Shown here: in pieces, positions 36,740 to 39,460 of the stretch
Layout: each line of letters begins with the position of its first letter
How positions within the stretch are numbered: position 1 is the first letter of the stretch
Source: a virus
Reading direction: 5' to 3' (one strand)
DNA length: 64,000 nucleotides
Virus record (IMG/VR): IMGVR_UViG_3300034682_000176
Span: 62,001-126,000 of that record
The notes under the pieces: model-generated
What the model was told of the DNA's origin: nothing
The model's database searches: none
The model's input: the letters and a program-made list of their open reading frames with translations, nothing else
Position numbers and translations under genes: made by a program

Positions 36740-36776
36740 AACCGCCCTAGTTCACCTGTTTACAAAAGGATACGCC

Positions 36777-37349
36777 GTGTCTAAACCTATCTCCAAAATC
36801 CATCAACGCGTGATGGAAGCCCAACGTCTGCGTGTTGGTAAAACCGACCGTGCCATCGACAAGATCATCTCGGACGGCATGGACATTGATCGCAGCGGTG
36901 ATGCCGACTTCCTGGCCTACAACAACCAAACCTGGACTGATCTGAACACTCTGCGTGAAGAGCTGGCCACTGCGACCATGACGTTCACTGGCCAAGTGTA
37001 CGGCATGATCAACAACCCCCAAGTGGTGGTCGCGCTGGGTGACAAGAAACCCAAGTTCGACCGTCTGGTGGAAACTTTCTTTGCTGACGCCCAGGCATTC
37101 AGCTCCCGCGTGGCCGAGTTGCGTGCCCAACACGAACACCGCACTGGCTCGTTTGCATCGCTGGAAGAATACGGCGAGTTCAACAAGCTGGCGCTGCAAT
37201 ACCAGAACGCCAACGACGAACTGCGTGTGCTGTTGGCACCAACCATCTCCGAGATGGTGCTGATCGTGCACGAACAAACTTCTGCAGCTGCCCAGCAAGC
37301 CGACCTGCTCGACCCTAAGGTGGTGTCGGACGTGGAAGTTAAGGCTTAA
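36777..37349 (+). CDS. Unknown coiled-coil-like protein, GTG start
   Basis: 190 residues; GTG 36777 follows AAAAGGA by 6 bases. Long amphipathic helices dominate (RVMEAQRLRVGKTDRAIDKI; SRVAELRAQHEHRTGSFASLEEYGEFNKLALQYQNANDELRVLL). The build suggests a structural rod, scaffold or chaperone. It is read just before the frameshifted hub protein, with 15 bases between them, so joint action is likely. Family not recognised. Confidence 0.75.
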   Translation: MSKPISKIHQRVMEAQRLRVGKTDRAIDKIISDGMDIDRSGDADFLAYNNQTWTDLNTLREELATATMTFTGQVYGMINNPQVVVALGDKKPKFDRLVETFFADAQAFSSRVAELRAQHEHRTGSFASLEEYGEFNKLALQYQNANDELRVLLAPTISEMVLIVHEQTSAAAQQADLLDPKVVSDVEVKA

Positions 37350-37364
37350 CTGCAAGGACCCAGC

Positions 37365-38966
37365 ATGACTGATCAAATTCAGCTGGGGCATAACGAGCCC
37401 CAGCAACCTGACCCCACTATTGCCGACAACACATCTGCTACCGAGGAAGTGTTGTTCGATATTGGTGACCGAGACACCCCTCCCCCAGCTCTGCAAGAGT
37501 CTGCGGAGCAACCTGAAGCTGCACCTCAGGAAGAAGTGGTTCCGACCACCAACGCGATCTTGCAAGATCCGATCGAGCTGCCTCTCAAAAAGCCTCTGTT
37601 GCCTGGTGACTTCCGCGTCTCGCTGCCTTCGTTCCCGTTGGGCATTTTCACTGGACTGTGGCAACGCGCAGCAGCTACCGACAAGAACGCCATGGAAGCG
37701 GTCACCCGCGCCGAATGGCAGAGAGCCACGGATGAGATGTCGGAGATGTACATGCCGGGTGGCATGTACTCCGAACGTCTGCAAGATCCAACTTCGCAAT
37801 TCCGCCAAGGTCTGCTGACGCAAGACGGTGAGTTGCAACAGTTTGCTCCACCTAAGCACAAGGCAAAGAAGCCTGATGACAAAGATTTGCGTGGTGAATT
37901 GGCACTGCTCAAGGTCAGTCGTGCGTTGGGTCAAGGTGAAGTGCAGATTGTGCCTTTGCCCCACTCGGGCATCAACGTCGCCATCAAACCACCAGGTGAG
38001 CGCGCCGTCATCAATTTCTACAACACCGTGTTCCGTGAGAAGATCGGCATCGGCCGTATGACCGCCGGTCTTACGCTGACCAACTTCTCCACCCACATCA
38101 ACAACCGTCTGTTCGAGTTCATCTTGGAACACGTGCACTCGATCAACTACGGTGATATCCCCAAGAGCGATCTGCGCAAGTACCTCAAGCTGCCGGACTT
38201 CTACATCCTGGCAACCGGTATGGCCGCAGCGCAGTACCCCAACGGCTTTGAATTCCAGCGCCCTTGCATCTCCGAAGATGCCAAGTGCGACTACATCGCC
38301 AAGGGTCTGATCAATCTGTCCAAGCTGTACTGGTTGGACAACACGGCTTTGACCGAAGTCCAAAAGAAGATCTTGCTGGATGCACGTCCTGGGATCTTGA
38401 CCAAGGAACACTACAACAAGTACCAGCTGGATCACACCCGCATGGTGACTTCCAGCTTCACCGTCAAGAACGAGCAATCGTCGTTCAAGTTCCACATGCG
38501 TGTGCCGACCTTCGAGCAACACGTAGAAGATGGCATGGCCTGGATCAACCAGATCAACGGTGCTGTGGACGCTATCATCGTCACCGACGGTGATGAAGAA
38601 GAAACCCGCACCCAGATGCTGCAGCAGTACGTCAAGAGCTCGACGCTGCGGCAATTCAGCCACTACATCGAGTACATCGAAATCGACGACGAACCCATCG
38701 TCGACCGCGAGACCTTGAACAAGGTGCTGGAGCTGCTGAGCGCTGACGATGTCATGCGTGAAGAGCTGTTCCGCCGTATCCTCAAGTACAAGTCCGACAC
38801 CACCATTGCCATCATCGGCATTCCTTCCTACAAGTGCCCGAACTGCCACGCTGAGCAGAACACTGAGCCGGTCAACCAAGGTTTGGTCGACGTCATTCCT
38901 CTGGACGTCATGAACCTTTTTTTTACATTACTTACTCTCCGCATGTCCCGCATTCTGGAGAGATAA
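37365..38966 (+). CDS. Baseplate-hub-type protein (gp26/gp28-like), frame-0 product
   Basis: 533 residues. Residues 1-75 are acidic and Pro/Gln-rich; then PLKKPLLPGDFRVSLPSFPLG resembles the N-terminal element of T4-type hub proteins. A CPNC pair at 491-494 lies before a hydrophobic ending, as in that family. The frame ends with a 14-codon tail after the slippery T run at 38918-38924. The -1 frame opens into a further 161 codons, so this is likely the short form of a two-product gene. T4 gp26 and gp51, hub assembly proteins, are adjacent genes, which may be the counterpart. Virion-assembly role inferred. Confidence 0.6.
   Translation: MTDQIQLGHNEPQQPDPTIADNTSATEEVLFDIGDRDTPPPALQESAEQPEAAPQEEVVPTTNAILQDPIELPLKKPLLPGDFRVSLPSFPLGIFTGLWQRAAATDKNAMEAVTRAEWQRATDEMSEMYMPGGMYSERLQDPTSQFRQGLLTQDGELQQFAPPKHKAKKPDDKDLRGELALLKVSRALGQGEVQIVPLPHSGINVAIKPPGERAVINFYNTVFREKIGIGRMTAGLTLTNFSTHINNRLFEFILEHVHSINYGDIPKSDLRKYLKLPDFYILATGMAAAQYPNGFEFQRPCISEDAKCDYIAKGLINLSKLYWLDNTALTEVQKKILLDARPGILTKEHYNKYQLDHTRMVTSSFTVKNEQSSFKFHMRVPTFEQHVEDGMAWINQINGAVDAIIVTDGDEEETRTQMLQQYVKSSTLRQFSHYIEYIEIDDEPIVDRETLNKVLELLSADDVMREELFRRILKYKSDTTIAIIGIPSYKCPNCHAEQNTEPVNQGLVDVIPLDVMNLFFTLLTLRMSRILER
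38918..38962 (+). other. -1 ribosomal frameshift site with downstream hairpin
   Basis: Slippery heptamer T-TTT-TTT (38918-38924) lies in frame 0 phasing (codons CTT TTT TTT). CTCTCC (38935-38940) pairs with GGAGAG (38957-38962), 10 bases downstream. The frame-0 stop is at 38964-38966, and the -1 frame is open for 161 codons without a usable start of its own. Confidence 0.7.
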
Positions 38967-39409
38967 CCGACATTAACGATGCGACCGCACTGAACTCGCG
39001 GTACGTCGCCAACAAGTTGTTTGGTCTAGAGGTGGATTGGGATGCCTTCATCGAGCGGTGCCTGACCGGCATGCGTAAGCCTCCAAACTACATCTATGCC
39101 AAACAGCTGCTGATTGAGTTGTATGAGACCGCCTACGGGATCTACGACCATGCCAATTCCACCAATCCCTTGTCTGGGGTAATGCAGCACGATGCTGAAA
39201 AGTATCTGGACGGTTACCTGTATGACAACTACTTGAGCACATTCTTGTACAAAGAGATCTATGCTCGTACCGGACTGTCGTTTGACGACTTCCTTGACAA
39301 ACCCCGCTTTGAGATTGAAAAGATCTTCAAGCTGGTGGATGAGTACAATTCCAAAAAGTCAACGATTGCAAACAACCTCGTGAACGATTTGGAAAACCAA
39401 AACAAATAG
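38924..39409 (+). CDS. -1 frameshift extension of the hub-type protein
   Basis: 161 residues reached only by slipping back one base at 38918-38924, giving a fusion of about 681 residues. The extension reads smoothly from the join (FFYITYSPHVPHSGEITDIN) and is acidic and helical. No ATG or GTG lies in its first 48 codons, and no ribosome site precedes the TTG at 39017, so independent translation is unlikely. Position just after the hub-type gene matches T4 gene 51 following gene 26. An undercount of the T run in sequencing would give the same picture. Confidence 0.65.
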   Translation, partial: YITYSPHVPHSGEITDINDATALNSRYVANKLFGLEVDWDAFIERCLTGMRKPPNYIYAKQLLIELYETAYGIYDHANSTNPLSGVMQHDAEKYLDGYLYDNYLSTFLYKEIYARTGLSFDDFLDKPRFEIEKIFKLVDEYNSKKSTIANNLVNDLENQNK

Positions 39410-39414
39410 GGCAA

Positions 39415-39460
39415 ACTCCTGCACGATATCTTCGGGTATCGTGCAGGAGTGACTCTTTGT
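39415..39460 (+). terminator. Terminator after the frameshifted gene
   Basis: 14-bp stem (39415-39428 with 39437-39450) closed by a cTTCGg-type loop, then TGACTCTTTGTTTG. Confidence 0.75.

Follow-up and report, generated by a model that had tools for sequence, protein, structure and literature searches.

The stretch of DNA analysed here, referred to as the window, is 64,000 nucleotides long and spans 62001-126000 in a virus record of 224,810 bp. On its plus strand, an open reading frame at 37365-38966 encodes a protein of 533 residues. Its matches include phiKZ gp077 and the corresponding proteins of many giant phages, which form family phrog_4585. A CPNC motif is located at residues 491-494 (38835-38846), and both of its cysteines are nearly invariant across the family. 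Close to the end of the frame is a run of eight T residues, at 38917-38924. Bases 38910-38927 are read in frame 0 as ATG AAC CTT TTT TTT ACA. This codon reading places the heptamer T-TTT-TTT at 38918-38924 in the X-XXY-YYZ phase, fit for tandem -1 slippage as the initial annotation had proposed, and at a conserved Phe-Phe pair. A stem-loop at 38935-38962, which begins 10 nt past the heptamer, and the TAA stop codon of frame 0 at 38964-38966 follow; folding and the sequence agree with the initial annotation on both. The open stretch of the -1 frame spans 38867-39409. Within it, the extension (38924-39409) comprises 161 codons and a stop, and a slip would join 520 residues to these 161, giving the 681-residue fusion that had been predicted.

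Immediately past the stop codon of the -1 frame is a strong hairpin with a UUCG loop and a 16-bp stem (39415-39450, plus strand, -31.4 kcal/mol, z -8.6). It is a probable transcription terminator, and as such would close one transcript spanning both frames. The downstream neighbor of the locus encodes a DNA polymerase; a tape measure gene is not adjacent. An antisense open frame of 710 residues at 36747-38879 on the minus strand looks like a shadow of the coding strand. The T8 run is the only one in the 64-kb window. The 224.8-kb record contains four such runs, each on the plus strand, the other three, of at least eight T residues, being located at 142590-142599, 164785-164795 and 217230-217239 of the record (G000:C1).

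The core of the upstream protein was modeled with confidence by AlphaFold (pLDDT 92.9, pTM 0.90). Beyond its own family, a Foldseek search with this model matched assembly proteins and subunits of T4-like baseplate hubs with E values of 3e-7 to 2e-5 and a probability of 1.00. The matches in BFVD have TM scores to the target of about 0.5-0.6, with predicted models on both sides of the comparison. The sequence also matches the T4_baseplate family PF12322, with E=2.4e-4 in a search of the genome, at 16.5-17.4 bits and thus below the curated cut-off of 24.5. The predicted fold of the core, residues ~175-533, is therefore of the T4 gp26 type, in line with the gp26-type identity that the initial annotation had given to the upstream protein. 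Fold and sequence searches of the PDB found nothing related to the core. PF12322 has one match in the whole record, and no second copy of the T4 style was seen.

The extension encoded in the -1 frame is predicted to form a helical domain (pLDDT 82.6, with the first 17 residues poorly modeled). It corresponds to families phrog_12109 and phrog_7580, the former being matched by 77 of 79 family members of the -1 part. A search of the PDB by sequence found no relative of the extension. The profile of the phiKZ-type extension did not significantly match that of the C-terminal tail of T4 gp51, whether the parts were compared alone or as whole fusions (hhalign probability 9, P 0.004, with the alignment confined to the helices at the very C-terminus). 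Sequence profiles thus give no more than a hint that the -1 domain and the gp51 tail are homologous.

The arrangement of the two frames is conserved in relatives. We compared 28 named phages including the window, among them phiKZ, PhiPA3, EL, SPN3US, Goslar, Ea35-70, LucasX and Noxifer. The -1 part matches the gene directly downstream of the gp077 counterparts in the same phages, and in 28/28 the downstream open frame overlaps the upstream one and is in the -1 frame relative to it. A fully canonical, in-phase T-TTT-TTN is found at the conserved Phe-Phe in 22. The first base of the heptamer is mismatched in FLC9, PhiPA3, Noxifer, Psa21 and PA1C, and the slip site of pVa-21 is A-CTT-TTT. As a control, the next gene upstream of gp077 was considered, and its frame is mixed (frames 0, 1 and 2 in 7, 4 and 13 of the 24 named phages tallied manually from annotation tables). 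No frameshift is annotated in the named records, and every one examined shows two separate genes. The annotated start of the downstream gene is an internal ATG, GTG or TTG, often one that removes conserved residues.

Two profile scans of IMG/VR yielded a further sample of 105 loci with distinct junctions, which partly overlaps the named phages through copies and relatives. The downstream open frame is in the -1 frame in all 105. An in-phase N-TTT-TTN is found at the same Phe-Phe in 99 of them; 81 are fully canonical T-TTT-TTN, and a further 18 have a first-base mismatch in the P site. The remaining six (L138, L139, L170, L171, L177 and L208) are divergent phiKZ-type loci with the -1 open frame intact and weaker sites in place of N-TTT-TTN, such as A-CTT-TTT or G-GTT-TTT. 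The closest relative, L124, whose upstream protein is ~50% identical, retains AACCTTTTTTTTACATT exactly. Codon usage at the slip site is strongly biased. All 99 loci have TTT as the first Phe codon, compared to 35 expected from the Phe usage of each gene, and even genes that use TTT for <10% of their Phe codons have it at this position. Multiplied naively, the probabilities give 10^-58; as these loci are not independent samples, it is the direction of the bias that is clear. The comparison of T runs and frames thus revealed an X-XXY-YYZ heptamer in the right phase and conserved in relatives, as expected of the programmed -1 frameshift suggested in the initial annotation.

The -1 open frame also shows the substitution pattern of a coding sequence. 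Past the stop codon of frame 0, differences between close pairs at the first, second and third codon positions of the -1 frame number 381, 234 and 943. In the region of overlap, most changes are at the wobble positions of the two frames, 19 and 11 compared to 3 elsewhere. These patterns argue for protein-coding selection on the -1 frame, which appears to have no conventional initiation site of its own.

Together, these observations suggest that the locus is very probably one gene with two products, a tail assembly chaperone pair of the phiKZ group (TAC-N/TAC-NC, of the lambda G/GT type) produced via -1 ribosomal frameshifting. Most ribosomes would read 37365-38966 and produce the 533-residue, gp26-type short form (TAC-N). 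A minority would slip back by one base, with two Phe tRNAs on T-TTT-TTT, and continue to 39409 to produce the 681-residue long form (TAC-NC). That short and long forms share an N domain follows from the reading frames alone. Judged by homology to T4 gp26/gp51 and by the model of lambda gpG/gpGT, both forms would be tail or hub assembly chaperones. Many copies of the short form may bind or coat the tape measure or hub, and a few long forms may recruit tube or hub proteins through the C-terminal domain, in which case the slip rate would set the ratio of the two. The locus is not directly upstream of the tape measure gene, the position that characterizes lambda G/GT. The distance from the tape measure gene, the weak match to the gp51 tail and the six weaker slip sites limit the claim of membership in the family, not the frameshift itself.

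A frameshift could also be real and yet yield two structural components of the hub, present in the virion in a fixed ratio, instead of chaperones. Some studies of T4 located gp26 in the hub, as noted in a T4 review (PMC3004832), and some database records name the family ‘baseplate protein’. However, gp26 and gp51 appear among the hub assembly chaperones in the same review, other records name the proteins tape measure protein assembly chaperones, and the PRFect paper (PMC10885494) gives the short/long chaperone reading for T4-like phages. We consider a structural role for both proteins unlikely.

Long T runs are slippery for RNA polymerase as well. Were a U added in the run during transcription, part of the mRNA would carry the fused frame. 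The T8 run here, and the runs of seven to nine T residues in 73 of the 99 loci with N-TTT-TTN, are consistent with such slippage. The other 26 have just five or six, including G-TTT-TTC, and the run in cyanophages is six. In addition, the known route to the long form in tail chaperones is ribosomal (PMC5009743). Transcriptional slippage is therefore improbable, and ribosomal slippage is the preferred route.

Translation of the downstream frame as a separate protein is still less probable. It could begin at a codon of its own, such as ATT 38972 behind GGAG or TTG 39017, or be coupled to the stop codon of frame 0. In its favor, GGAGAG is located 9 nt ahead of ATT 38972, and database annotators placed a downstream start in relatives. 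This rare ATT is, however, the sole candidate start with a four-base Shine-Dalgarno match in the window, and L124 has no start codon at the equivalent spacing. Across the family, a Shine-Dalgarno match of at least four bases with a start codon within 30 codons of the slip site is found in 1/99 loci, which agrees with the initial annotation that the frame lacks a start and ribosome site of its own. The extension begins with FFYP ahead of any start codon, and these conserved residues and later ones precede the annotated starts. A separate start also leaves the invariant in-phase TTT codon and the fixed -1 frame (105/105) unexplained. Finally, homopolymer runs are error-prone in general, but loss of a T in sequencing or assembly that split a plain single gene, a concern of the initial annotation, is already refuted by relatives, since the same -1 relation in the 28 named phages and 105 IMG/VR loci, at T runs of 5 to 9, indicates that the frame relation and not the run length is maintained. 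A second contig record (L012), possibly built from related reads, shows no difference over 7,679 bases, the T8 among them.

We also searched for elements that may stimulate the proposed ribosomal frameshift. The hairpin at 38935-38962 has a folding energy of -10.9 kcal/mol (z -2.9). Its six-base arms, CTCTCC and GGAGAG, are identical in L124, at about 50% identity, and the loop is different. Downstream RNA structure across the 99 folded loci showed no excess over controls, and a family-wide stimulatory structure was dropped as a candidate. The hairpin is thus at most a local aid to slippage, which it may stimulate here. An upstream Shine-Dalgarno-like motif is found in just 4/99 loci, and a search of Rfam matched nothing relevant.

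The initial annotation drew a parallel to T4, in which gene 26 is followed by gene 51. In the T4 genome (L031:5803-7229) the two genes are adjacent and divergent, gene 26 on the minus strand and gene 51 on the plus strand, so they are not on one message and a tandem arrangement was ruled out. As at the phiKZ-type locus, the tape measure gene is not adjacent, gene 29 being two genes further on. Both T4 proteins match PF12322. The longer gp51 is paralogous to the whole of gp26, has an additional C-terminal tail, and is not the missing downstream half of a gp26-51-like fusion. What stands of that proposal is the frameshift and the gp26-type upstream protein.

An adjacent, overlapping arrangement with a slippery site does occur in cyanophages. 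In P-SSM2 (L042:3306-4201), gp26 ends in LQSFFV, encoded at the junction AG-T-TTT-TTC-GTA-TAA, and gp51 is an open frame in the -1 frame; the two are annotated as separate genes. In 80/80 loci of T4-type cyanophages (including L043-L122), gp51 is in the -1 frame and T-TTT-TTC is found in phase where gp26 and gp51 meet. The cyanophage gp51 frame aligns with residues 200-247 of T4 gp51 (hhalign probability 95, E 4e-8), so that the tail of T4 gp51 is its counterpart. The likeness to T4 gp51 suspected in the initial annotation is weak for the phiKZ-type -1 part. Cyanophage gp26 matches T4 gp26 with a probability of 98.5 and the N-terminal part of gp51 with one of 90.6. Judging from these junctions and alignments, cyanophages seem to produce the long form by frameshifting, and T-evens encode it in a gene of its own. 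In the Ackermannviridae phage ECML-4 (L260:2944-3117), an unannotated -1 open frame is located right after a gp26-like gene and contains a YSxxEISESMPW motif similar to that of cyanophage gp51 (YSLTELENMMPW). Its junction, GAA ATT TTC ATT TAA, is without a canonical heptamer.

Frameshifting on poly-T at the end of gp26-type chaperones could go back to one ancient recoding site, older than the divergence of T4-type and phiKZ-type phages, that was kept almost throughout both groups and was replaced by gene duplication in T-evens. We regard this history as tentative, its chances slightly short of even.

Reading T4 gp26/gp51 as a short/long pair has a precedent. Vladimirov, Gautam & Davidson (2022), as reported in two later papers (PMC10885494, PMC12846349), named gp26/gp51 short and long tail assembly chaperones. 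According to the summary of that work in the PRFect paper (PMC10885494), some T4-like phages use a second, longer gene instead of a frameshift, and it is the source given in the Adele paper (PMC12846349) for poly-T slip sites of TAC-N genes in T4-like phages. Atkins et al. 2016 (PMC5009743) list T4 as an exception to the conserved G-T frameshift. The initial annotation knew of no description of such a frameshift. For T4-like phages this was overtaken by the short and long forms of Vladimirov et al. 2022, as relayed in those papers. For phiKZ-type phages it held in the open-licence literature searched, including jumbo-phage reviews and the core-genome paper. The kind of device is known; this member and its reach across the phiKZ-type phages appear to be new.

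With this locus, the phiKZ-type (Chimalliviridae-like) phages gain a candidate tail assembly chaperone pair, and an explanation emerges for phrog_4585 and phrog_12109, two linked families of unknown function. All named records examined either separate the downstream part from the gene or shorten it. How the frameshift ratio shapes tail assembly in nucleus-forming phages becomes readily testable, as does whether the duplication of gp26/gp51 in T4 replaced a frameshift.

Several known systems resemble the proposed chaperone pair. The direct homologues are phiKZ PHIKZ077 and PHIKZ076.4, where T-TTT-TTT is in phase and the -1 frame runs into 076.4; unlike in our reading, they are annotated as two genes of unknown function. 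T4-like gp26/gp51 share the gp26-type N domain and the short and long forms, and the long form of T4-type cyanophages likewise depends on -1 slippage at T-TTT-TTC, at the same terminal Phe-Phe. T4 itself differs, with two divergent paralogous genes and no frameshift. The phiKZ-type proteins are also larger (533 residues compared to 208-239), and so is the extension (~160 compared to ~50-60). The slippery sequence of lambda G/GT is GGGAAAG, unlike the poly-T found here. The likeness to lambda (PMC5009743) is one of analogy, and the tape measure gene is not directly downstream at the phiKZ-type locus. The tail chaperone frameshift of Vandenendeviridae and Andersonviridae, with a GTTTTT motif (PMC12846349), belongs to other virus families and is similar in the arrangement of its slip site: the site is poly-T, the -1 frame is open family-wide, and the downstream part is annotated as a separate hypothetical gene.
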